NCBI RefSeq assembly: GCF_011089875.1
Contig: NZ_JAANAS010000040.1
Coordinates: forward strand, 1 to 51,614
Source of the DNA: Psychroflexus maritimus
GTDB taxonomy: Bacteria; Bacteroidota; Bacteroidia; Flavobacteriales; Flavobacteriaceae
Direction of reading: 5' to 3'
DNA: 51,614 bases
Part shown: positions 2,479-14,523 of the stretch, one piece after another
Layout of the letters: each line of letters opens with the position of its first letter
Position numbering within the stretch: the stretch's first letter is position 1
Translations under genes and position numbers: made by a program
The notes under the pieces: generated by a model
The model's input: only the letters and a program-made list of their open reading frames with translations
Told to the model about the DNA's origin: nothing
Databases searched by the model: none

Positions 2479-5400
2479 ATGAAGTCTATATTCTGCTGCT
2501 TGTTTTTATTGATTGCTTCTGGTTTTGCGCACGCGCAAGAAGACCTCATGCTCACTAAAACCATTGCTACACAAGACAGTATTTTTTTAGAAGACGTTAG
2601 TATTAGCTCGGCAGATTTTAAGCTTCAAACATTGCAAAATCAAACAGTTGATACTTCTTCATTCACAATTAATTATGGCAAAGCTTTGCTTGTGATGAAT
2701 CAAAAAATTCAGCAAGAAAATGATTCTTTGCAAGTTACTTATCGAAATTTTCCTGGTTTTCTAACCAAGACCTACCAAGCTTTAGATGAAGCTATTATTG
2801 TTGATGAAACATCAGGCAACACGCCTCTTTATGAAGTTAAACGTCAAGACCAAAGTCAGGATTTTGTACCTTTTGACGGACTAAACACCAGCGGAAGTAT
2901 TTCTAGGGGAGTGCGTGTTGGAAACAACCAAAATGCGGTTGTTGATTCTGAATTAGACCTCCAAATTTCTGGAAAACTCTCTGAAGATGTTACACTTAGA
3001 GCTTCTATTCAAGATGCTAATACACCGCTTCAACAAGGTGGTTATTCGCAACGTTTAAATGAATTTGATCAGGTTTTTATTGAATTACAAGGGAAAAATT
3101 GGGGCATAAGAGCTGGAGATATCGACTTAGTTGAGGATAAGTATTTTTTTGCTTCGTATAACAAAAAAATTCAGGGACTTTTAGTTTCTACTCAGCTTCA
3201 GCAAGACACCAATCCTATTGAAGCTTATGCCGCTGGTGCTTTAGTCCGTGGTGTGTGGACAAGAAGTGAACTCGTTGGGCAGGAGGGAAATCAAGGACCT
3301 TACAAATTAACAGGACCAAATGGCGAATTACTAGTTTTGATTATTTCTGGAAGTGAATCGGTTTTTGTGAATGGAAGGCGACTAAAACGTGGGGAAAATG
3401 AAGATTACTTGATCGATTACAATGCAGGCGAAATTATTTTCAATGCCAATTTCCCCATTACTTCTGAAATGCGAATTGTGATTGAATACCAATACGCCGA
3501 TCAAAATTATTCGCGGGTTTTAGGTACTGCCGGTGGTAGCTACCAAACTGAAAAATTTCAGATTAGTAGTTTTGTTTACACAGAAACCGATTTAAGAAAT
3601 CAACCTATACAACAAGCTTTAAGCGATGAACAAGTAGGTGTGCTTCGTGAAGCAGGGAACGACCAAAGCCAGATGATTGCCCCAAGTGCTGTTCCTACTG
3701 ATTTTTCTGAAAACAGGATTCTCTATCGAAAAGAGATTCTTAATGGAGAGGAGATTTTTGTGTTTTCAAATGATCCTGAAGATGAACTTTTTAGTGTTCG
3801 TTTTACTAATGTTGGAGCCAATCAAGGAAATTATGTGGTAAGTACAGATAATGCTATTTCACGAATTTTTGAATATGTACCTCCACAAAACGGAGTTCCA
3901 CAAGGCGAATTTGAACCTGTAATTCAGTTGTTTGCTCCCGAAAGACTGCAAGTTGGGGTAGTGCAATCAACCTATAAAAATGGAGAACATTCTTATGTAA
4001 GTTCAGAATTAGCGGTAAGTGATCAGGATAAAAATTTGTTTTCAAATTTAGATAACGATGATAATCAGGGATTGGCGTACAAAGTAGAAACTCGACAACG
4101 TGTGGTGAATAACCAAAACAATTGGAATGTAGATGTCTTTGGAAACCTAGATTATATTCACCGCAATTATACCTCCATAGAACGTCTGTATAATGTAGAG
4201 TTTCAGCGGGACTGGAATTTATTTAACCCTGATGGAAATCAACGATTGATAGATCTAGGAACAAACGTTAATCATCTTGAAAAAGGAAATCTTCAATACC
4301 AATTTCAGCATTTAGATTTTTCTGAAAGTTTTACTGGAAACCGACAAGTATTCAATGCTAATTTCAATTTTGAAAAGCTCACTCTTGTTGCTAATGCCAG
4401 TTATTTAAAAACGGATGGAAGTGTGTTGGATTCCGAATTTTCTAGAGCTAATTTTTTTAGCGTTTATGATTTAGGAAAACCTTGGGTAGGAGCAAAATTT
4501 AATTATGAAGACAACGAGGAATTAAATTTAGCTGAAAATCAGCTTACGATTAACACTCAACGTTTTAAAAGTTACGAGGTTTTTACCGGAGTAGGAGATA
4601 GTACCGATGTTTTTGTTGAAGTAGGCTACCGATTTAGAGAAAATGATAGTTTACGTAGTAATCAACTTGAACGGGTAAATCGTTCTAACAATATTTACCT
4701 GAAATCTACTACTATCAACACGCAAAGCACAAGGTTAGATGTTTTTGCAAGTTACAGGAATTTACAAAATAGCGACCCTAATTTAGAAGATGAGAATGTA
4801 ATTAATTCAAGAATTACCTTTAGTCAAACTTTGCTTGATCGAATGCTTAGCTTAAATACCGCTTATGAAACCAATAGCGGAAGTATTGCACAGCAAGAAT
4901 TTACCTATGTTGAAGTCAACCCTGGCGAAGGTCAATATGTTTGGATTGATTATAATGAAAATGGTGTACAGGAGCTGGATGAATTTGAATTGGCTCAGTT
5001 TCCAGCTGAAGCTGATTTTATTCGAATTTTATTACCCAATCAAATTTTTATACGAACGAATCAAACTAGGTTTAGTCAGCAGATGAACCTTAATTTTAAG
5101 GCATGGAGTAACGAAGAGGGATTTAAAAAGTTACTCTCAAAATTTAGTAATCAAGTTTCTTTTGTTGTTGACAGAAAGCTGAGGCGGGATGGTAATTTAA
5201 TTAACCTCAATCCCTTTAGTGCTAACGGGCAAGAAGAGTTAGGACGCAATACCAACATTAGAAATGCCTTGTTTTTTAATCGAGGAAAACAGCGTTATAC
5301 CACCTCTTATAATTTCATCCAAACCCAGTCCAGGAATTTGTCAACCATTGGTTTGCAAGACAATAATACCCAAGCGCATCAGCTAAATTTTGTGCATAAA

Positions 5401-5889
5401 TTATACGACACATGGTTGCTTACTTTTCAAAATGAATTAACCAACTCCGAGAGTATTTCAGAAAATTTTGAAAACCGAAACTTTCAATTAGATGGCTTTA
5501 GTATAAATCCTAAAATTTCCTACTTATTAGGAAACAATGCTCGGTTTGATGCCTTTGCAGAATTTGGAAAAAAGGAAAATCAGATAGCTGAACAAGAACT
5601 CTTAGAACAGCAAATTTTAGGCGCTTCATTTACTTTAAATCAAGGACAGAAATACGCTATTACAGGCGAATTTAACTACATTAAAAACGACTTTTCAGGA
5701 AGTGCATTTACCCCAGTAGCTTACCAAATGATGGAAGGCTTGCAACCCGATAATAATTTTACTTGGTCGGTTTTTTTACAGAAAAAAATCACCGATTTCT
5801 TAGACCTAAACCTAACTTACTTCGGAAGAAAAAGCGAAAATACAAGTACCGTTCACACTGGTAATGTTCAGTTAAGAGCCTATTTTTAG
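2479..5889 (+). CDS. Large secreted beta-rich outer-membrane-type protein, unknown function
   Basis: 1136 residues with a clear Sec signal peptide (hydrophobic stretch ending AHA, cleavage near residue 19). The body is rich in alternating polar/aromatic beta strands and ends in Phe (LRAYF), as outer-membrane barrels usually do. Residues about 312-350 (DYNAGEIIF ... YADQNYSR) and the segment IDYNENGVQELDEFE resemble modules of Bacteroidota SprA-like giant barrels. The latter is a canonical EF-hand-type calcium loop: D824, N826, N828, G829, E835. No enzyme motif is visible. It stands alone, followed by the accessory island. The outer-membrane location is inferred from the signal peptide and strand pattern; a function cannot be assigned. 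Confidence 0.75.
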   Translation: MKSIFCCLFLLIASGFAHAQEDLMLTKTIATQDSIFLEDVSISSADFKLQTLQNQTVDTSSFTINYGKALLVMNQKIQQENDSLQVTYRNFPGFLTKTYQALDEAIIVDETSGNTPLYEVKRQDQSQDFVPFDGLNTSGSISRGVRVGNNQNAVVDSELDLQISGKLSEDVTLRASIQDANTPLQQGGYSQRLNEFDQVFIELQGKNWGIRAGDIDLVEDKYFFASYNKKIQGLLVSTQLQQDTNPIEAYAAGALVRGVWTRSELVGQEGNQGPYKLTGPNGELLVLIISGSESVFVNGRRLKRGENEDYLIDYNAGEIIFNANFPITSEMRIVIEYQYADQNYSRVLGTAGGSYQTEKFQISSFVYTETDLRNQPIQQALSDEQVGVLREAGNDQSQMIAPSAVPTDFSENRILYRKEILNGEEIFVFSNDPEDELFSVRFTNVGANQGNYVVSTDNAISRIFEYVPPQNGVPQGEFEPVIQLFAPERLQVGVVQSTYKNGEHSYVSSELAVSDQDKNLFSNLDNDDNQGLAYKVETRQRVVNNQNNWNVDVFGNLDYIHRNYTSIERLYNVEFQRDWNLFNPDGNQRLIDLGTNVNHLEKGNLQYQFQHLDFSESFTGNRQVFNANFNFEKLTLVANASYLKTDGSVLDSEFSRANFFSVYDLGKPWVGAKFNYEDNEELNLAENQLTINTQRFKSYEVFTGVGDSTDVFVEVGYRFRENDSLRSNQLERVNRSNNIYLKSTTINTQSTRLDVFASYRNLQNSDPNLEDENVINSRITFSQTLLDRMLSLNTAYETNSGSIAQQEFTYVEVNPGEGQYVWIDYNENGVQELDEFELAQFPAEADFIRILLPNQIFIRTNQTRFSQQMNLNFKAWSNEEGFKKLLSKFSNQVSFVVDRKLRRDGNLINLNPFSANGQEELGRNTNIRNALFFNRGKQRYTTSYNFIQTQSRNLSTIGLQDNNTQAHQLNFVHKLYDTWLLTFQNELTNSESISENFENRNFQLDGFSINPKISYLLGNNARFDAFAEFGKKENQIAEQELLEQQILGASFTLNQGQKYAITGEFNYIKNDFSGSAFTPVAYQMMEGLQPDNNFTWSVFLQKKITDFLDLNLTYFGRKSENTSTVHTGNVQLRAYF

Positions 5890-6027
5890 AATTTGCTAAA
5901 ACTGAATTGAAATAATAGATGTATTTGAGACTCATCAACAACCTGAAAAGATAAAGCGAACGAAATAAGTCAGTTATGCATCATTCAAATTGAAACTACA
6001 AACAAATTAGAACTGATAAAATATCCT

Positions 6028-6035
6028 TATATTTG
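6028..6035 (+). promoter_or_regulatory. Candidate -7 element for the antitoxin-toxin operon
   Basis: TATATTTG matches the Bacteroidota consensus TAnnTTTG and ends 23 bases before the antitoxin ATG. No clear TTG is seen at the -33 position. Confidence 0.45.
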
Positions 6036-6058
6036 TAAGGTTTCAAAAAGCAAAAAAT

Positions 6059-6280
6059 ATGTATAACTCAATAGAAATTGACCGAAAAAAACTTACGATA
6101 ATGGGCGTCAAGTTTTCAGATTTAAAGACATTGGAAAACACTGCAAGTGCTATTGGAAGCAATATGTTTGAAGGCTTTAGACCAACGCAAAGAAGTATTG
6201 AAATCATAAGAGATTATATAATAGGTAAAATATCTCTAGATGATTTAATAATTTATACGAAGAAAAAGACCTATGTCTAA
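6059..6280 (+). CDS. VbhA-like antitoxin of a Fic toxin module
   Basis: A 73-residue protein with the helix SNMFEG (residues 34-39). This is the (S/T)xxxE(G/N) inhibitory motif by which VbhA-type antitoxins place a glutamate into the ATP pocket of class I Fic AMP-transferases. The following helices (RPTQRSIEIIRDYIIGKISLDD) match the VbhA pattern of an amphipathic repeat ending in a GxISLDE-like segment. Its last 8 bases overlap the Fic gene start, implying translational coupling. The motif appears intact although the partner toxin is interrupted. The name follows from motif and position; no homologue search was possible. Confidence 0.8.
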   Translation: MYNSIEIDRKKLTIMGVKFSDLKTLENTASAIGSNMFEGFRPTQRSIEIIRDYIIGKISLDDLIIYTKKKTYV

Positions 6281-6935
6281 TTCTTACAGATATGTTGATC
6301 CTGATTATACTTATATCGACCCAAAATCAGGAGTGCTAAAAAACTTAGCTGCTATTACTGACTCAGAAGATTTACTTTTTTTTGAGAGTGTTAAAGTAAC
6401 AAAACGAATTAATGAATTACATAACAATCCAATCAAAATAAATGGAATTGAAAGCTTATTTTCGATTCATCAACATTTATTTCAAGATATTTACGGTTGG
6501 GCAGGCAAGAAAAGACTTGTTGAAATAAGTAAAGATGGAAAATAATTTTTCCTAACATCTCATTTCGAAAATGCTTTTAATTTTATAGATACTTTGATAG
6601 AAAGTTTCAAGAAAACTAAAAGAGATGATAGAAATGAAATTGCCGAAAAACTAGCTGAAATATTAGACAACGTTAATTATTTACATCCATTCAGAGATGG
6701 TAATGGAAGAGCTCAGAGAGAATTCTTAAGAATGTTGGCTCTTGAGAAAGGGATATCTTTGAACTTAAACAAGGTAGATGTCGTAGGTACGCCCGAAGGT
6801 TTTAAACTTGAGAAAGGGATATCTTTGAACTTAAACCCACCTGACGATAAAAATGTTTATGAAAGATATATGCAAGGAACGGTAAATAGTGATGTTAAAA
6901 TATTGAAAGAATTGATTTTTGAATTAATCAGTTGA
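6273..6935 (+). pseudogene. Fic-domain AMP-transferase toxin (VbhT-like), interrupted by an in-frame stop
   Basis: One frame of 220 codons is broken by TAA at 6543-6545 (codon 91), after LVEISKDGK, and continues in the same frame as FFLTSHFENAFNF. A CAA Gln codon there (one C-to-T change) would restore the gene. The second part carries the complete Fic motif HPFRDGNGR (H138-R146) with the catalytic His, so the active site lies wholly beyond the stop. Restart at the TTG at 6594 could yield a 113-residue fragment. A 66-bp in-frame insertion also lies just after the Fic motif (see the repeat at 6741-6836). Intact relatives AMPylate target proteins such as topoisomerase subunits; this copy is probably inactive unless the stop is read through. 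Confidence 0.85.
6741..6836 (+). repeat. 30-bp direct repeat inside fic, creating a 22-codon insertion
   Basis: The 30 bases encoding LEKGISLNLN occur at 6741-6770 and identically at 6807-6836, 66 bp apart. The 36 bp between encode KVDVVGTPEGFK. The insertion keeps the frame. In Fic proteins the single sequence LEKGISLNLN would be expected to run straight into PPDDKNVYERYM. Confidence 0.9.
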
Positions 6936-7031
6936 ATTAAGAACGATGCATAAAAGCGCATAACAAAAATAGCGAGATTTGCGGTTGAAACTAGAGTTTA
7001 GTGTAGTTTATAAATAAACAATTTAATTGAG

Positions 7032-7152
7032 AAAACCATCCATTTTTGCTCGTCTAAAAGCACATGTGAGAGATGTTCTCTGCAAGCTGAATCCAGCCGC
7101 ACAAAAGCACATTTGGTTTTTGTCAAGGCTAAGCCCCAACGGTGAAAAACCG
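7032..7152. other. Structured, relatively GC-rich non-coding spacer between fic and the restriction operon
   Basis: The gap 6936-7242 has no gene. Within it AAAACCA (7032-7038) and TGGTTTT (7114-7120) are inverted. Between and beside them the direct repeat AAAAGCACATnTG occurs at 7056-7068 and 7103-7115. CGGT/ACCG (7140-7143, 7149-7152) forms a small hairpin. The composition is richer in G+C than the flanks. It may be a conserved junction sequence of the island or an RNA element; neither is established. Confidence 0.4.
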
Positions 7153-7211
7153 AAAAAATAACCCTATCACATCATACGCAAAATCCTAATGATGATATTT
7201 ACACTAATTTA

Positions 7212-7242
7212 TTGAGGTAATCGAAAAACTTTATTATTTTAG
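7212..7242 (+). promoter_or_regulatory. Candidate promoter of the restriction-modification operon
   Basis: TTG at 7212-7214, 20 bases, then TATTTTAG at 7235-7242, one base off the TAnnTTTG consensus. If used, transcription would start very close to the out-of-frame ATG at 7247, giving a nearly leaderless mRNA. Weak evidence. Confidence 0.3.
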
Positions 7243-7246
7243 TCCA

Positions 7247-7458
7247 ATGAATTAAACAATTCAAAAATAAACCGAATAAAAGAAGTTTTAAAAGACAAAG
7301 GAATTTCGCAGACTTGGCTTGCCGAAAAAACAGGCAAAAGTTACAACAGCATAAACGAGTATGCACGAAACGTAAGACAACCAAGTATTGAATGCCTTTA
7401 TAAAATTGCTGGTATATTAAATATCAGTGTAAAAGAATTATTAGTTGAAAATGAGTGA
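7247..7458 (+). pseudogene. XRE-family helix-turn-helix regulator, start codon out of frame (apparent 1-nt deletion)
   Basis: Reading from 7252 gives a typical small XRE protein: RIKEVLKDKGISQTWLAEK, then a recognition-helix region KSYNSINEYARN, then IECLYKIAGILNISVKELL, ending at TGA 7456-7458. The only ATG (7247) reads ATG AAT TAA. Adding one T after AAT would give a 70-residue protein beginning MNLNNSKINR. In the open frame there is no ATG, GTG or TTG after the stop at 7240-7242. Either the gene is frameshifted at codon 3, or it uses an unusual start such as ATA, or the base is a sequencing error. It overlaps the methyltransferase start by 8 bp (ATGAGTGA). Small XRE regulators in this place usually control expression of restriction-modification operons. 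Confidence 0.75.
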
Positions 7459-9649
7459 AAAATTAAAAGTATATGGTCTGTTTACAGGTGGGGGAGGTTT
7501 AGATATTGGTTTCAAAGAAGCGGGATTTGAAATCATAGGGGCTTCTGATATTTGGAAGGAAAGTGAAAACACAATGAATTTGAACTATCCAGATATTCCA
7601 TTTATCTGCAAAGACATTACAACTCTCACTTCACATGATATATTAGAAAGCACAAACGGAGTTAAGCCAGATGTAATAATTGGCGGTCCTCCTTGTCAAG
7701 GTTTTTCTGTAATGGGCGATAAAAATTCCGCTGACCCAAGAAATGTATTGTTTGAAGCATACGCTAGAATTGTTGATGATTTGGAGCCTAAATGTTTTGT
7801 TTTTGAAAATGTGAAAGGAATTAAATCCATGTTCAAAGGGAGATATTTAAATATGGTAGCCAACAGTTTTTCAAAAATTGGATATGATATATATCTAAAA
7901 GTATTGAATTCTAAAGATTATGGTGTTCCGCAAAAAAGAGAGCGAGTGATAATAGTGGGCACTAAGGTAAATAGGCTTTTTAATTACCCACCACCTAGCA
8001 ATGATTCTATTGGTATCTTAAAAGCGAAAAAGAATGTACAAGAAGCTATTGGTGATTTAGTTAAAAAAGATGAAAAGTTCCCCAATCACTTGGCACTTAC
8101 ACATGGTGAAATAGTTCTTAAGCGATATAAACTTATCCCTGAGGGAGGCAAGCTTCCACCACCAGAGGAATTACCGATTGAAATTAGACGGAAAAATTTC
8201 GGAAATACATATGTCAGACTTCATAGAAAGGAATTAGCTCCCACTATGGTTCCTGGTAATAATGCCTTTCCAGTACATCCTACTTTGGATAGAAGTTTAA
8301 CACCTAGAGAAGCAGCTAGAATCCAAACTTTCCCTGATACACACATTTTTACTGGAGCGAGAAAAGAACAATGTATCCTAGTTGGTAATGCAGTTCCACC
8401 TCTAATGGGTGCTCATATTGCAAGAGAACTTAAAAAACATATCCTCGATAAAGATTATATAGGCTCAGAGGAGAATTTGCTGTTAAAAAGAAATAGTTTG
8501 ATTGAAAAAGATGTAATTAATAAAGTCGAAAGTAAACTTAGCTTCATTGATTTATTCTCTGGAGCAGGGGGTATTGGGATAGGATACGAACAAGCTGGAT
8601 ATCAACACGTACTTAGTGCGGACTTTGATCCTGGTGTAGCAAAAACTTTCAGACATAATCACAAGAACGTCCCTTTTATCGAAGGTGATTTATCTGATGA
8701 ATCAATTTTTGAAAGTGTAAAACATGTAGTAGGTAATAAAGAAATTGATGTTATAGTAGGTGGACCACCATGTCAAGGCTTTTCAATGTTTGGCAAAAGA
8801 AGATTTGTTAAATCGCAATCTCACAACCCGCATGATGACATAAGAAATGACTTAATATTTACCTACTTAAAATACGTTGAAGAGTTTAATCCAAAATGGT
8901 TTATGATGGAAAATGTTGCTGGTTTAGTCAACTTAGCAGATGGATATTTTCTGGAGAATTTCATAGAAAGAGTAAAGGAATTAGGTTACAACAACTATGA
9001 TTACAAAATCATTAATACAGCTGATTATGGAGTGCCACAAAAAAGAAAACGTTTTATTTTTCTAGCGAACAGAACTGGAAATATTATTCCATGGCCTAAA
9101 CCTAAGTTTTATTCTGATCCTGAAGATTGGGAAAAACCTTATAGGAATATAAATCAAGTGATAACTGGGCTAGAAACTGACAAGTCGCAAACCAAATATA
9201 AAAATCACATCCCAATGAATCATTCTCCAGAAGTTGTTGAGCGATTTTCTTATATAAAAGAAGGTCATAAAATAAACCCGGATGATTTGCCTGAACATTT
9301 AAAGTACAGTAGAACAGGTAAGCTTATAAAGAGTTTTAGCAAAGTTTTATTTAGATTAGACCGCAATCATCCTAGTCACACCCTTGTACCTGGACATAGT
9401 GCTTTTCCAATACATCCTTGGCTTGACAGACAACTTACTGTCAGAGAAGCTGCAAGAATTCAAACATTTCCTGATTCAATTGAATTTTTAGGCAATCATG
9501 GCCAGCAATGCAAACAAGTTGGTAATGCATTTCCTCCTATGGCAGCTGAAGTTTTTGCTAATGCTATCAAAAAAGCTATTGTCAATGACTGGAGGAAGGA
9601 GAATTTAAGTGGATTAGTTCATTACTCGTTAATAGAAAAAACTAAATAA
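7451..9649 (+). CDS. Double-headed DNA (cytosine-5) methyltransferase, two complete catalytic domains (LlaJI M1-M2-like fusion)
   Basis: 732 residues, about twice a normal small C5 methyltransferase. Domain 1 (about 5-335): SAM motif FTGGGGLDIG (11-20), catalytic Cys82 in GGPPCQGFS, FEN (118-120), QKRER (161-165), REAARIQTFP (286-295), VGNAVPP (311-317). Domain 2 (about 362-712): DLFSGAGG (367-374), Cys441 in GGPPCQGFS, MEN (486-488), QKRKR (530-534), REAARIQTFP (665-674), VGNAFPP (690-696). Neither active site is damaged. The target-recognition segments (about 175-262 and 545-645) differ, so the halves probably read different sequences or opposite strands of an asymmetric site. ATG at 7451 is preferred over TTG at 7445. 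The stop overlaps the next ATG by one base. Confidence 0.92.
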   Translation: MSEKLKVYGLFTGGGGLDIGFKEAGFEIIGASDIWKESENTMNLNYPDIPFICKDITTLTSHDILESTNGVKPDVIIGGPPCQGFSVMGDKNSADPRNVLFEAYARIVDDLEPKCFVFENVKGIKSMFKGRYLNMVANSFSKIGYDIYLKVLNSKDYGVPQKRERVIIVGTKVNRLFNYPPPSNDSIGILKAKKNVQEAIGDLVKKDEKFPNHLALTHGEIVLKRYKLIPEGGKLPPPEELPIEIRRKNFGNTYVRLHRKELAPTMVPGNNAFPVHPTLDRSLTPREAARIQTFPDTHIFTGARKEQCILVGNAVPPLMGAHIARELKKHILDKDYIGSEENLLLKRNSLIEKDVINKVESKLSFIDLFSGAGGIGIGYEQAGYQHVLSADFDPGVAKTFRHNHKNVPFIEGDLSDESIFESVKHVVGNKEIDVIVGGPPCQGFSMFGKRRFVKSQSHNPHDDIRNDLIFTYLKYVEEFNPKWFMMENVAGLVNLADGYFLENFIERVKELGYNNYDYKIINTADYGVPQKRKRFIFLANRTGNIIPWPKPKFYSDPEDWEKPYRNINQVITGLETDKSQTKYKNHIPMNHSPEVVERFSYIKEGHKINPDDLPEHLKYSRTGKLIKSFSKVLFRLDRNHPSHTLVPGHSAFPIHPWLDRQLTVREAARIQTFPDSIEFLGNHGQQCKQVGNAFPPMAAEVFANAIKKAIVNDWRKENLSGLVHYSLIEKTK

Positions 9650-11883
9650 TGAAAGAACAATTTATTTCCTGGCTTGAAAGGGAGAAACCTAAAAGCATTA
9701 GACATTATACATCTGGTTATAATACTATTGAAAAAATTCTAAGCGATAACAAATTACCATCTATTAATACCTGGACTCTTTCAAATTTTGAAAGTGCTTT
9801 GGATAATATCAAATCGCTTGAAAATTTCAGTAATCTTAATAGTTCAGGTAATAATATTTTAACAGCTACCCTTTCAAATTATAAAAAATTTATGGAAGAA
9901 AAAGAAGAAACAGCCCAATTCAACATACCACCAATTAAACCATTTGAAAATTTCAAATGGAGATGGGCAGTAACTACTCCTAGTGAAGGAATAAATACGC
10001 CTGAAATATTAATCGGTGTATTACAAGTGCTCTTAAAGCATAATGGTCAAAAGCACGCTACACAAGAATTTCAAGATGACCTTTTAGCACTGCAAACCAA
10101 ACTTAACACTAGAATTGATTTAGCAAAAGTTGATAGAGGGCTAAATAAAAATATAATTGAAAATTCTGGTCAATATTGGAAAGCACTTGGACTTCTTGAA
10201 AATTCAACAGGAGGAATAATCAATCTTACTCCTTTAGGAAATTCAATAGCTGAGGGCCGAACTAATTATGATGAATTTATTAAGCATTTATATTTAAACT
10301 TCAAATTACCGAATATTCATATTGAGTCGAACGATATTACTCAAGAATGGCGTGATAAAAATATTGAAATTTTACCCATAAAATTAATTTTTAATATTCT
10401 ATTTCAGCTTAAAAGGCAATCCAAATCTCCGTCTGACTGGTATATAACGCCAGAAGAACTCAAAGATATAGTTGTACCTCTTTCGGCATATACAATGCTA
10501 CCCATGGCTGAATATACCAAACAAATAATTGGCTATAGAAGAAACACGAAACCATACGAATCATGGCCAAACTGTACACCAGGTGACAACGATTTTCGAA
10601 TGGTAAAAGAGTATTTACTATTCCTTTGGAATTTTGGCTTTCTTGATTTTTTAGAACTAAGAGATAAATCCAAGCGGTATTATTTGAATGAAAAAAGTAT
10701 AAATATTCTTGAAGAATATTATAAGCCAGATGTTAGAGAAATAAATGTCATTACTGACTTAACAGAACAATCCGAGTTTGACATCAAAAAATTTCAAGAT
10801 TCTTGTAAAAATGTAGGTCTAGTCTACACTGACAAACTCATTACTCGTTTTGTAAGTTCCCTTTTAACTAAACCCTTTGTTATATTAACTGGGCTTTCAG
10901 GCTCTGGCAAAACCAAACTTGCTCAAGCCTTTGTAGAATGGGTCTGTCAAGAAGTAAGCCAATACCGCATTATTCCAGTTGGCGCAGATTGGACCAATCG
11001 AGAACCATTACTCGGTTATCCAAATGCATTAAAACCTGAAGAGTATGTAAAGCCAGATAGTGGTGTGATAGACTTGATTTTACAAGCGCTCGCTAATCCT
11101 GACTTACCTCACTTTTTGATTTTAGACGAAATGAACCTAAGCCATGTGGAACGCTATTTCGCAGACTTTTTGAGCGTAATCGAATCAAATGAAGAAATAC
11201 CCTTATATGCCGAAGGAACGGTTGAAAATGGTGTGCCTGCAAAATTAAAAGTGCCTTCAAATTTGTTTATCATAGGTACAGTTAACATTGATGAAACCAC
11301 CAATATGTTTAGTCCAAAAGTATTAGATAGGGCTAACACCATTGAATTTAGAGTATCGAAAAATGAAATGAAATTCTTTCTAGAAAATATTAAAGACATC
11401 AACATGGATGCTTTAATGAGTAAAGGAGCAACTATGTCTAAAGCCTTTTTGGACATGGCTGCAAAAAAATCTTTTGCTACTGTAGATATTGAAGAAATTA
11501 ACCAAACACTCATTAAGTTTTTTGGAGAATTAACCAAAACTGGGGCTGAATTTGGTTACAGAAGTGCAACTGAGATATTAAGACTCATTCATCAACTTTC
11601 AGAAATAGACACTGGATTAACAACCAATGAGAAAATAGATATTGGTATTATGCAAAAACTATTACCAAAACTACACGGCTCGAGAAGAAAGTTAACTCCA
11701 ATTCTTGAAACATTGGGGTCTTTTTGTGTTTCAAAAGATTTGAAAATTGTAAAAGACGTTTTTGAAAAACAAGACTTTGATTTTAAAACGGCAGAAGTAT
11801 TATATCCCCTTTCACTTGAAAAAATAACACGCATGTACAAAGGTGCAATAGATAATGGATTTGCAAGCTATGCAGAAGCTTAA
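9649..11883 (+). CDS. McrB-like AAA+ GTPase restriction subunit (LlaJI R1-like)
   Basis: 744 residues. The C-terminal half is the McrB-type AAA+ motor: Walker A GLSGSGKT (415-422), Walker B ILDEMN (491-496), signature GTVNIDET (543-550) in place of the classical MNTADR-type motif, and Arg561 in VLDRA. This motor hydrolyses GTP and drives DNA translocation. The N-terminal half has a helical segment (1-85), a linker, and a mixed domain (95-360) with winged-helix-like stretches (for example WKALGLLENSTGGIINLTPLGNSI). By analogy with LlaJI R1 this half should read the DNA site. Ordinary 5mC-reading McrB has a different, shorter N-terminus. Overlaps the methyltransferase stop by one base and lies 3 bp before the nuclease gene. 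Confidence 0.85.
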   Translation: MKEQFISWLEREKPKSIRHYTSGYNTIEKILSDNKLPSINTWTLSNFESALDNIKSLENFSNLNSSGNNILTATLSNYKKFMEEKEETAQFNIPPIKPFENFKWRWAVTTPSEGINTPEILIGVLQVLLKHNGQKHATQEFQDDLLALQTKLNTRIDLAKVDRGLNKNIIENSGQYWKALGLLENSTGGIINLTPLGNSIAEGRTNYDEFIKHLYLNFKLPNIHIESNDITQEWRDKNIEILPIKLIFNILFQLKRQSKSPSDWYITPEELKDIVVPLSAYTMLPMAEYTKQIIGYRRNTKPYESWPNCTPGDNDFRMVKEYLLFLWNFGFLDFLELRDKSKRYYLNEKSINILEEYYKPDVREINVITDLTEQSEFDIKKFQDSCKNVGLVYTDKLITRFVSSLLTKPFVILTGLSGSGKTKLAQAFVEWVCQEVSQYRIIPVGADWTNREPLLGYPNALKPEEYVKPDSGVIDLILQALANPDLPHFLILDEMNLSHVERYFADFLSVIESNEEIPLYAEGTVENGVPAKLKVPSNLFIIGTVNIDETTNMFSPKVLDRANTIEFRVSKNEMKFFLENIKDINMDALMSKGATMSKAFLDMAAKKSFATVDIEEINQTLIKFFGELTKTGAEFGYRSATEILRLIHQLSEIDTGLTTNEKIDIGIMQKLLPKLHGSRRKLTPILETLGSFCVSKDLKIVKDVFEKQDFDFKTAEVLYPLSLEKITRMYKGAIDNGFASYAEA

Positions 11884-11886
11884 AAA

Positions 11887-14190
11887 ATGAAAGCAGTATC
11901 AAACATAGAAATCAGCCTTGATTCCATTCAAGAAGGTTTACGGCTTTGGATTGATGCCCGAAGACCTGATTCGCTATTTGATGCAGAAGAAAACGCGATA
12001 GAACATAATGAAGCAAGGTTTCAACTTGTAGAAGGGTGTTATTATGATTATCAATTGAGTGACTCTGATTATATACTAAGTGACATTGGGGAGAATATCA
12101 TTCAACAACATAAAAGAACAACAAATCTTGGCACAATAGCACCTAATATTTTTGTTGGAACGCTTTCTATACCAATACTCAAAAAATCAAATTCAGAGGT
12201 TTGTAAAAACATTGATTTAGAGGTACAGTCTATTAAATCTGGATATCGTGATGATTACCGAGACATGCTGGAACTAATCACAGAAAAGTGTACAGACTTA
12301 CTGCTACAGGCGAATTCACCAGTTTCTCAACATTTTGAAATTGATTATACCAAAGATAGCCAAACCTTATATCAGAAGTTTTCATTTATCAAATCGGTAA
12401 TTGGAACCAATGAATTTACAGAGGCAATTCATAGAATTATAACCGCTCCCGTAACTAAATGGGCAGAAACTTCTGAGGAAAAAGATATTAGAAATGCTAA
12501 ACGATTTTCTAATAGAAATATCAAAGAAATTCTTAAAGCTGGTAATAGAACAAAAATACCGAAGTCTCATTACTTAAGGAATTATGGCATTGAAACATTA
12601 CCAGAACGTATTACCACAATTCGCAAAATAGATTCGGTAGACACACCGGAAAATCGTTTCATTAAACATGCTTTAGAAAACTTTTTAAAATTCTGCACCG
12701 ATATCCATAGAAAGGCAAAAGATTTTAGTCATCAGAAAATGGAAACGGAATCCATTTTATTGTTTCAAGACTTGGAAAGTCAACTACAACATGGCATTTT
12801 TAAAGAAATTTCACGGCCTACAACCTTAAAATTAAACAGCCCTGTTTTACAGAGAAAAGAAGGCTATCGCGAAATACTTAGAGTTTGGCTTATGTTTGAT
12901 CTTGCCGCTAAACTTATATGGGAAGGTGGCAATGATATATACAGTGGTGGGAAAAAAGATATTGCTACACTCTATGAATATTGGCTATTTTTCAAATTGT
13001 TAGACTTATTTAAGTCCATTTTTGAAATTGAGCCTAAAGACATTTCAGAATTAATTAAGGAAACGAAAGATGGATTAAACCTTCAAATTAAGCAAGGAAA
13101 GTTTACTGCATTAAAAGGTACATTCAATTCTGGAAGCCGAAAATTGAATATCCGATTTAATTACAATCGCTCTTTTAGTGGTAAAAAAGCTTATCCCGAT
13201 TCAGGAAGTTGGACAACTACTTTGAGACCAGATTATACATTGTCCTTTTGGCCTTTTGGTGTTTCAGAACAAGAAGCAGAAAAACAAGAACTCATAGTGC
13301 ATGTTCATTTTGATGCAAAGTATAAAATTGCCAATTTGAATGATTTTTTTAAACAAAATGCTGAGAGTAATTTAGATATAGAGAAGACAGAAAATAGAAA
13401 CGGTATCTACAAAAATGCAGATCTCCTAAAGATGCACGCTTATAAAGATGCTATTAGAAGAACAGGTGGTGCTTATGTTTTATATCCTGGAGATAAATCC
13501 ATTAATCAGAAAGGGTTTCATGAAATTATTCCAGGACTTGGAGCATTTCCTGTAAAACCCTCTAAAACTGACAGTGGAATTGGGGAGCTTAAAGCGTTTA
13601 TTTTGGAAATAATCGAACACTTTGTAAACAGAGCCTCTCAACGTGAGAAAATCGCTTTCAGAACGTTTGATGTTTATAAAAATCCTCCTGATTCAAATAA
13701 CTCTGTAAATGAATCACTTCCAGAGCCATATAACATGAATAGAGATTTAATTCCTGACGACACTTATGTATTGGTAGGTTATTATAACTCTATTGAACAA
13801 TATGAATGGATTAAACGAACCAAACTTTATAACTTTAGAATGGGTTCAGGTAATGGTTCATTAATTCTTGATAAAGAAACGGTAAGTTCAAAATACCTTT
13901 TACTTCATACATTGGGTGAATCAAAGTCTGGTGATTTGTGGCGAATTATTAGTAAAGGACCGAAAGTTTTTTCTAGACAAAATTTAGAACAAAAAGGATA
14001 TCCAGAGGCAAAAAAATCAAAGGATTATAAAAAAAACTATTTAGTTATTGAGTTAGAAAAGGTTACAGACCCTGAATTTGAGAATATATATTGGGATTTT
14101 AAAGAATTAGAAAATTATTCTTCTGGCAGAGCTTCTGCTTTTCCTTTCACAACCAACTTGACAGAATTAATGAAAAAAATAAGTAAATAA
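11887..14190 (+). CDS. McrC-like PD-(D/E)XK nuclease subunit with DUF2357-like N-terminus (LlaJI R2-like)
   Basis: 767 residues. The N-terminal half is DUF2357-like, with the conserved TPENRFIKHALENFL (253-267). The nuclease core shows Glu364 in YEYWLFFKLL, Asp449 in RPDYTL and the DxK pair Asp476/Lys478 in HFDAKYK, followed by KMHAYKDAIR (515-524) and GAYVLYPG. These are the PDDEXK_7/McrC-type catalytic features. A separate C-terminal region (about 615-767; TYVLVGYY ... LWRIISKGPKVF ... NYLVIELEKV) looks like an added small beta-rich domain, perhaps PUA/EVE-like; that is a guess. It would cut DNA when activated by the upstream GTPase. Third gene of the operon. Confidence 0.82.
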   Translation: MKAVSNIEISLDSIQEGLRLWIDARRPDSLFDAEENAIEHNEARFQLVEGCYYDYQLSDSDYILSDIGENIIQQHKRTTNLGTIAPNIFVGTLSIPILKKSNSEVCKNIDLEVQSIKSGYRDDYRDMLELITEKCTDLLLQANSPVSQHFEIDYTKDSQTLYQKFSFIKSVIGTNEFTEAIHRIITAPVTKWAETSEEKDIRNAKRFSNRNIKEILKAGNRTKIPKSHYLRNYGIETLPERITTIRKIDSVDTPENRFIKHALENFLKFCTDIHRKAKDFSHQKMETESILLFQDLESQLQHGIFKEISRPTTLKLNSPVLQRKEGYREILRVWLMFDLAAKLIWEGGNDIYSGGKKDIATLYEYWLFFKLLDLFKSIFEIEPKDISELIKETKDGLNLQIKQGKFTALKGTFNSGSRKLNIRFNYNRSFSGKKAYPDSGSWTTTLRPDYTLSFWPFGVSEQEAEKQELIVHVHFDAKYKIANLNDFFKQNAESNLDIEKTENRNGIYKNADLLKMHAYKDAIRRTGGAYVLYPGDKSINQKGFHEIIPGLGAFPVKPSKTDSGIGELKAFILEIIEHFVNRASQREKIAFRTFDVYKNPPDSNNSVNESLPEPYNMNRDLIPDDTYVLVGYYNSIEQYEWIKRTKLYNFRMGSGNGSLILDKETVSSKYLLLHTLGESKSGDLWRIISKGPKVFSRQNLEQKGYPEAKKSKDYKKNYLVIELEKVTDPEFENIYWDFKELENYSSGRASAFPFTTNLTELMKKISK

Positions 14191-14257
14191 TATGCGGATG
14201 CTAAAAGCCATACGCAACTAACTTTTCCATCAGGCTGTTAGCTAGATTTGGTGCTGG

Positions 14258-14282
14258 ACCTGCCTTACTACCACAGGCAGGT
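14258..14282. repeat. Inverted repeat ACCTGCCT/AGGCAGGT
   Basis: Perfect 8-bp arms (14258-14265, 14275-14282) around a 9-bp loop, 68 bp after the nuclease stop. It lacks a following T-run, so it is more likely a dispersed palindrome than a terminator. The surrounding 14191-14523 holds no credible gene. Confidence 0.6.
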
Positions 14283-14376
14283 AGGCATGCATGCAAAACG
14301 AAAAGTTTTATCTATTTTTAGAAACCTAAACTTTATCCTACCTTTGCCTTATCTTTTAAGCTTAGCCAAAGCTTTT

Positions 14377-14422
14377 ACACTGAGTATAATCGAAGCGTTT
14401 ACGCTGAGTATAATCGAAGTGT
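14377..14422. repeat. Tandem REP-like palindromic element
   Basis: CTGAGTATAATCGAAG occurs at 14380-14395 and 14404-14419 (period 24). The whole is bounded by ACACT (14377-14381) and AGTGT (14418-14422), which are complementary. GCG-TTTA-CGC lies at the centre. It shares the CTGAG...TCGAAG core with the element at 49-73. It marks the right end of the accessory island. Confidence 0.7.
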
Positions 14423-14523
14423 CGAAATTACAGACAGAACAAAAGGCAAACGCTTATTTACTTAGCTAATAAATTAGCACATAAATCTTAATGTATCAGG
14501 CCATGCAAAAAGCAAATAATAAC

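Follow-up and report, generated by a model that had tools for sequence, protein, structure and literature searches.

Restriction systems built from McrB- and McrC-related subunits need not be aimed at methylated DNA: published work describes wide variation among McrB N-termini and restriction of unmethylated DNA by some McrBC relatives (PMC7680126, PMC12707154, PMC1459862). In LlaJI, described from the Lactococcus plasmid pNP40 and with a homologue in Helicobacter pylori, two C5 methyltransferases accompany an McrB-like R1 and an McrC-like R2 in a self-protecting system (PMC1459862, PMC12707154); the H. pylori protein binds DNA by a B3 domain (PMC7680126), through which LlaJI reads its unmodified site (PMC7680126, PMC12707154). 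An operon of comparable design lies on contig NZ_JAANAS010000040.1 of Psychroflexus maritimus, to which frames and coordinates below refer unless another locus is named (the window is the whole 51,614-nt stretch analysed). Its four plus-strand genes comprise an XRE/Cro-type regulator frame, a double C5 methyltransferase of 732 amino acids (aa), an McrB-like GTPase (R1, 744 aa) and an McrC-like nuclease (R2, 767 aa). This operon is quite probably a complete self-protecting restriction-modification system, in which a Type IIS-like reader is mounted on an McrB motor and a constant chassis surrounds an exchangeable cassette. The chassis would consist of the XRE gene at one end and the motor with R2 at the other, and the cassette of the methyltransferase and the reader.

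With LlaJI the window operon has in common two C5 units, an McrB-like GTPase and an McrC-like PD-(D/E)XK nuclease; LlaJI, by its published description, differs in its separate methyltransferases and B3 reader, where the window operon has fused methyltransferases, a predicted BpuJI-like reader and an XRE gene in first place. Escherichia coli McrBC, a Type IV system, has the same motor and nuclease classes, and differs from the window operon, which has no known 5-methylcytosine (5mC) reader and has its own, presumably cognate, methyltransferase. The restriction endonuclease of AlwI is a Type IIS enzyme and, unlike the window operon, is not known to have a motor; PcaI comes from a Pectobacterium host. 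The two methyltransferase units of AlwI are fused in one chain, as in the window, and serve one asymmetric site, GGATC/GATCC (PMC4081073). PcaI combines a methyltransferase acting on CCNGG with an AAA+ GTPase and a DUF2357 nuclease, classes also present in the window operon, and restricts DNA without that mark (PMC8989522); of the systems compared it is the nearest tested precedent for a DUF2357 nuclease restricting unmarked DNA; it differs in having one Dcm-like methyltransferase, and its reader is described only as unrelated to that of McrB (PMC8989522). The LlaJI-like operon Clocel_4005-4008 of Clostridium cellulovorans, with two methyltransferases and two restriction genes, is described as a barrier to DNA uptake, deletion of the two endonuclease genes raising conjugation of a plasmid tenfold; its methyltransferases are separate, in contrast to the fused ones of the window (PMC11779793). 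Finally, a methyltransferase-associated McrB branch with an NxD motif is mentioned, and put off to a later paper, in PMC11090510. The window R1 has GTVNIDE, an NxD followed by E instead of NxxD, and has a methyltransferase in its operon; it differs from that branch in that two-component genes, described as frequent there (PMC11090510), are not seen in the window operon.

Exchange of a methyltransferase-reader cassette

The features of the operon are as follows.

7249-7262, no strand assigned: candidate operator, inverted repeat GAATT-AAAC-AATTC read directly from the sequence, directly 5' of the XRE frame
7267-7458, plus strand: XRE/Cro-type regulator frame (HTH_3, E=2.2e-11; 97% aa identity to L002, 76% to L026)
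7451-9649, plus strand: fused double C5-cytosine methyltransferase, 732 aa, halves ~1-350 and 351-732 (PF00145, E=4e-140, in two stretches; two motif sets)
9649-10728, plus strand: R1 N-terminal reader, predicted SAM-like helical part (~aa 1-90) and BpuJI/N.BspD6I-type winged-helix part (~aa 100-360), from a predicted model and Foldseek
10729-11883, plus strand: R1 McrB-like AAA+ motor (Walker A 10891-10914, Walker B 11116-11136, NxD motif GTVNIDE 11275-11295)
11887-14190, plus strand: R2 McrC-like nuclease, DUF2357 and PD-(D/E)XK_7 (PF09823, E=2.3e-38; PF04411, PDDEXK_7, E=1.8e-27)
7457-10779, plus strand: exchangeable cassette of methyltransferase and R1 reader, from junction alignments with L002, module identities and approximately unbiased (AU) tests

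The cassette emerges from comparison with two loci, L002 (a contig of Psychroflexus salarius DSM 25661) and L026 (from another genus of the same family). Between the window and L002, aa identity is 97% (60/62) for XRE, 95% (347/367) for the motor and 95% (723/762), or 94% in a separate comparison of modules, for R2. In place of the window cassette, L002 has two separate methyltransferases, 34% and 31% identical to the window halves, together with a 214-aa protein and an R1 N-terminus that has no match to the window reader. DNA identity stops at 7456, inside the XRE/methyltransferase overlap, and resumes near 10780, loosely at first, so that ~3.3 kb in the window stands opposite ~4.1 kb in L002. 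Towards L026 the methyltransferase is 96% identical (702/732), the reader 68% (244/359), the motor 79% (289/366) and R2 70% (534/758), and four-fold degenerate sites are identical at 150/252 positions in the methyltransferase vs 96/259 in motor and R2 (p=4e-7).

The same blocks recur elsewhere. The fused methyltransferase and the R1 reader occur together (cassette A) in all three loci concerned, the window, L026 and L059, and the block of L002 (cassette B) recurs in L027 and L055, whose chassis both group with L026. On the chassis tree, AU tests reject a clade of window and L026 (p-AU 2.9e-5) and one of L002, L027 and L055 (p-AU 1e-84); these groups were set by cassette content, and the test was picked after the first tree had been viewed. 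At the level of sequence, gene content, motifs and cassette exchange are clear, and a contiguous methyltransferase-reader block appears to have been exchanged as a unit between constant XRE and motor-R2 flanks. It is very improbable that the difference between the window and L002 is an assembly chimera or an annotation artefact. The host genome is a draft of 2,592,038 bases in 126 contigs, which would favour such an error; against it, the frames are continuous through both junctions, L026, in another genus, has the same XRE-methyltransferase-reader-motor order, and cassette B is present in three genomes.

Two observations count against a tightly bound cassette. Silent sites in the window and L026 readers are intermediate (37/75 identical), differing significantly at the 0.05 level neither from the methyltransferase (0.60 vs 0.49, p=0.14) nor from the chassis (p=0.06). 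In addition, a homologue of the fused double methyltransferase, 51% identical (376/731), is found on the small Acinetobacter plasmids pAV1 and pBspH11 (L061, L062), where it adjoins a 418-aa protein without similarity to the R1 reader of the window or L059; methyltransferase and reader are therefore not strictly tied. The 418-aa protein is a putative endonuclease with, by eye, an EFKP-type PD-(D/E)XK motif. The fused double methyltransferase thus moves on its own as well, and looks like a portable marking unit that two or more kinds of cutter accompany. The names in 15 plasmid and 15 phage records listed for it give no target specificity. Plasmid pBspH11 comes from NEB 394, a strain once classed as Bacillus species H, and the literature passages on that strain give no C5 motif for the plasmid.

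Cassette B has features of its own. A B3 identity for its 214-aa protein was considered and set aside, since the Pfam match (E=0.013) is below cut-off, there is no useful PDB match and the model reaches a predicted local distance difference test (pLDDT) score of 33.5, leaving a B3 nature unproven. In L027, alone of the three cassette-B genomes, an HNH protein (7327-8034, minus strand; Pfam E=9.8e-8) lies inside the cassette, with the second methyltransferase on one side of it and the 214-aa protein on the other. The R1 proteins of L027 (cassette B) and L059 (cassette A) seem, by eye, to have in common an extra N-terminal module of ~285-310 residues.

The gene classes named in the preliminary description of this DNA (XRE frame, double C5 methyltransferase, McrB-like GTPase, McrC-like PD-(D/E)XK nuclease) are all borne out by Pfam, PDB and PADLOC matches and by motifs. 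Both methyltransferase halves retain FxGxGG, GPPCQ, ENV, QKRxR and GNAxPP, motifs with established roles in C5 methyltransferases. The R1 motor matches McrB chain 6hz4 in PDB (E=1.9e-4) and the PADLOC defence candidate PDC-M26A (E=2.1e-51), and R2 has RPDYTL (13225-13242) and FDAKYK (13309-13326), which by eye supply a catalytic PD...DAK. The close packing that had been claimed is exact on reading of the sequence: the methyltransferase ATG (7451) overlaps the XRE TGA (7456-7458) by 8 bp, the methyltransferase TAA overlaps the R1 ATG (9649) by 1 bp, and a 3-bp gap separates the R1 stop from the R2 ATG (11887), the three frames ending at 9649, 11883 and 14190. The XRE start had been placed wrongly: ATG 7247 is not in the XRE frame, translation from it is full of stops, and the true frame opens with ATA at 7267.

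The missing start is a point against an intact system. The XRE frame has no ATG, GTG or TTG start, and ATA (7267-7269) stands where L002 and L026 have ATG; upstream, 7248-7267 is identical over 20 bp to the corresponding region of L026, a stretch that covers the candidate operator. An inactive remnant, in which the XRE start codon has been lost beside a broken Fic gene, would account for the ATA and for the interruption of the neighbouring Fic frame. It is nevertheless unlikely, the methyltransferase, R1 and R2 being intact with their motifs; translation may begin at the ATA or at a start not recognised here, or the system may do without XRE.

The R1 reader and a proposed mode of action

A Pfam search with R1 aa 1-360 gives just two entries up to E=0.1, BpuJI_N (E=0.0065) and Mrr_N (E=0.046). 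The former is a weak match, 16.2 bits against a cut-off of 25; no Pfam family in this region rises above its curated cut-off, and none of MrcB_N, SRA, YTH, EVE or B3 is found at E<=0.1. The reader homologue in L026 matches Phage_int_SAM_1 over residues 4-77 (E=3.6e-6). An AlphaFold model of the R1 reader, built on a three-sequence alignment (mean pLDDT 64, predicted template modelling score 0.46), has a well-predicted helical part (1-89) and two weaker parts that are winged-helix-like by eye. Its first Foldseek match in PDB is the BpuJI binding domain (E=6.6e-4, probability 1.00, template modelling (TM) score 0.39 by query and 0.49 by target); ranks 1-11 are all BpuJI or N.BspD6I with probability 1.00, rank 12 has E=0.074 and probability 0.15, and no MrcB_N-, YTH- or EVE-type reader is among the best 50 of the 762 matches.

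Both BpuJI and N.BspD6I belong to the Type IIS enzymes; they recognise asymmetric sites in unmodified form, CCCGT and GAGTC respectively, and carry their own nuclease domain. Their recognition domain would have the same fold as the R1 N-terminus; the window reader differs in being joined to a motor, with the nuclease as a second protein. On the predicted model the R1 reader can thus be assigned, provisionally given its pLDDT of 64, to the BpuJI/N.BspD6I-type recognition fold, and as to reader type it is the fold match from this middling model, together with the weak BpuJI_N profile match, that speaks for a Type IIS reading. Other results pull the other way. Just one of the 762 Foldseek matches reaches E<=0.001, superposition on BpuJI is loose (TM 0.36-0.51, root-mean-square deviation 6.8-9.8), the model is middling in pLDDT with a three-row alignment behind it, and sequence searches of PDB with the reader did not find BpuJI or N.BspD6I.

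The preliminary description held that the GTPase recognises an unmethylated site, and named a 5mC-flipping N-terminus as the sign that it does not. Neither the Pfam search nor the top folds, which are Type IIS, predict a known 5mC reader, within the limits of a model at pLDDT 64, and the earlier view holds to that extent. A known 5mC reader type is accordingly not indicated by the model, and a modified-base reader of a novel type would be compatible with the data. Homologues of the R1 reader were found neither in viral contigs nor in plasmids, nor in 345 genomes of the class besides its own (the carriers G251 and G1152 evidently lie outside that draw), and a search of genome contigs with R1 matched only L002, from residue 361 onward.

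These results bear on the earlier label "LlaJI-like", which stands for the organisation and the self-protecting logic, two C5 units with McrB/McrC-type subunits, and is not supported as to kinship, with no B3 match found in Pfam at E<=0.1. That the operon is a LlaJI orthologue proper, sharing the site of LlaJI and its B3-type reader, is highly unlikely. The gene classes and their order agree, as do the two C5 units (PMC1459862); the R1 N-terminus, however, matches BpuJI/N.BspD6I instead of B3, the methyltransferases are fused, and Lactococcus is absent from the 11 plasmid records matched by R2 (20.9-27.0% identity). By analogy the operon would work like LlaJI and PcaI; kinship with LlaJI is not shown.

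For the self-protecting system favoured here, we infer the site, methyl-sensitivity, translocation, cutting and regulation as follows. The fused double C5 methyltransferase would mark both strands of a presumably asymmetric site, as two C5 enzymes do in LlaJI (PMC1459862) and two fused methyltransferases in AlwI (PMC4081073). The R1 N-terminus, a BpuJI-like winged-helix part behind a SAM-like helical domain, would bind that site in its unmethylated state; DNA would then be translocated by the NxD McrB-type motor and cut by R2, while XRE may time expression of the operon.

One chassis with different readers

Relatives of the chassis were gathered with the motor as query, which matched 15/397 genomes of the family at E<=1e-20 and, at E<=1e-40, 12/395 of the order, 12/395 of the class, 2/27 of the genus and 10/296 of the phylum (the draws overlap and all counts include the own genome). 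In all 36 chassis were kept (the window, L002 and 34 further loci), 34 of them in the last tree, with Pfam run on the N-termini of 27/36. Before the trees, L039, L040, L049, L050, L057 and L058 (motor 27-37% identity) and L042 (same contig as L002) were left out; L059 and L038, with motors cut by contig ends, were kept out of the careful trees. Four tree rows (L041, L044, L051, L054) have contig ends too near upstream for a methyltransferase label, and 30 rows are labelled.

MrcB_N, which we take to be the same domain as DUF3578 of E. coli McrB, forms the R1 N-terminus in 14/36 chassis, 11 above the Pfam cut-off and three (L038, L075, L078) by tblastn. L030, L032 and L035 match the L028 query by its leading part and are counted as other readers because Pfam shows no MrcB_N in them. 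E. coli McrB is described as binding methylcytosine through DUF3578 (PMC7680126). The nearest chassis relatives of the window after L002, namely L028, L046 and L047, are MrcB_N-type, as is L029, sister to the group of L026, L027 and L055; none of these four has a C5 methyltransferase in the 14 kb fetched, or an amino-methyltransferase by a crude motif scan. Chassis whose motors are 74-91% identical to the window thus include methyltransferase-bearing forms, with two mutually dissimilar readers, and methyltransferase-free forms with an McrB-family (MrcB_N) reader. Judged by gene content, the motor-nuclease pair is thus common to a Type II-like and a Type IV-like form.

It is against this background that another explanation has to be weighed, a modification-dependent Type IV system next to which a methyltransferase happens to lie. 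The MrcB_N-bearing, methyltransferase-free stretches of L028, L046, L047 and L029 would suit it, as would L043, L052, L053, L074 and L075, in which methyltransferases of neighbouring or self-sufficient systems adjoin the chassis. In the window, by contrast, the methyltransferase gene overlaps both neighbours with no endonuclease gene of its own between, the R1 reader matches Type IIS domains, and methyltransferase and reader of cassette A stay together in three genomes; on balance the Type IV explanation is improbable.

The methyltransferase label changes at least 8 times on the tree of 30 labelled rows, with 7 changes forced by well-supported branches, and on an earlier 27-row tree (9 vs 14 rows) the hypothesis that all methyltransferase-bearing chassis form one clade was rejected (p-AU 8.6e-6). 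If methyltransferase association is ancestral in McrB GTPases, as PMC11090510 holds, many of these changes would be losses. Clustering of the label on this tree is only weak, with 56 and 60 out of 500 shuffles as low. By tests that ignore phylogeny, a methyltransferase is nearby in 2/11 MrcB_N rows vs 14/19 other-reader rows (Fisher p=0.007), in 1/11 vs 12/19 when only the same strand counts (p=0.007), and in 0/11 vs 10/19 when loci with their own endonuclease-like gene are also set aside (p=0.004). A sign test over independent pairs is not significant (0 the same way, 4.2 opposite, 3.8 without difference; p 0.0625-0.25). The link between reader and methyltransferase is therefore a tendency with exceptions, not significant once phylogeny is allowed for.

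A strict rule equating an MrcB_N reader with absence of a methyltransferase was rejected on the same pairs and on exceptions in both directions. The MrcB_N rows with a methyltransferase are L052, with a BsaWI-like protein between (E=2.4e-4, below cut-off), and L075, where the methyltransferase is divergent and other genes follow; conversely, 5/19 other-reader rows (L030, L031, L032, L035, L056) have none. In L043 and L053 the methyltransferase seems to serve its own restriction enzyme (NgoFVII-type B3 domain), and in L074 and L076 it is divergent. Two chassis have unusual architectures: in L041 (4101-5984, minus strand) XRE, MrcB_N reader and motor form one continuous frame of 628 aa that has no methyltransferase in between, and in L053 (3869-5839, minus strand) the motor match is split in two, as if, by eye, by an insertion of ~90 residues early in the motor.

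Genomic setting and significance

The operon lies in a stretch that may be mobile. Locus L071 (G015) has a counterpart of the window gene at 2479-5894 (81% DNA identity), followed 630 bp on by the start of the gene that in the window begins at 14491; a 163-aa frame lies between the two genes (3416-4137 in L071 being compared with 5895-14505 in the window), and the L071 contig ends there. With 630 bp at that site in L071, the 8.6 kb of the window (5895-14505) are extra, and they include both a Fic remnant and the restriction operon. The whole operon of L002 is flanked by a perfect direct repeat of 19 bp (139-157 and 8005-8023), possibly the borders of a mobile unit; at the corresponding positions the window matches it in part, over 14 identical bp on the right and over 28 bp at 89% on the left. 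Upstream of the operon, 6059-6935 encodes an antitoxin resembling VbhA (Pfam E=2.8e-7) and a VbhT/Fic-like frame that a stop splits in two. The end of the Fic-like frame contains a direct repeat of 30 nt (6741, 6807), and imperfect 24-nt inverted repeats (5974-5997 and 6930-6953) bracket the module. On the other side of the operon, two tandem 24-bp repeats (92% alike, 14369-14416) precede the gene at 14491, CaiB-like by eye.

Neither a BpuJI-type reader on an McrB motor nor cassette exchange between such restriction systems was found in the open-licence papers searched; parts of these findings may already be described elsewhere, since PMC11090510 defers methyltransferase-associated branches to a later paper.

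McrBC-type engines can be aimed at modified or at unmodified DNA, and how this comes about is a standing question; LlaJI stands far from E. coli McrBC. Near-identical motor-nuclease pairs with different readers amount to a natural domain-swap experiment, whose junctions mark where chimeras can be cut, the one being known to the base and its partner to within a few tens. The swap also links reader to methyltransferase and opens to direct test whether the choice between self-protection and attacking methylated DNA is made by the reader alone. On the predicted fold, the operon would moreover offer a reader of Type IIS kind mounted on a motor that translocates DNA. Opinion is evenly poised on the broadest proposal, that XRE, NxD-McrB motor and McrC-like nuclease form a general chassis reprogrammed by cassette exchange, making Type II and Type IV interconvertible states of one mobile element. 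The loci compared here do suggest one engine re-aimed in nature by module exchange.

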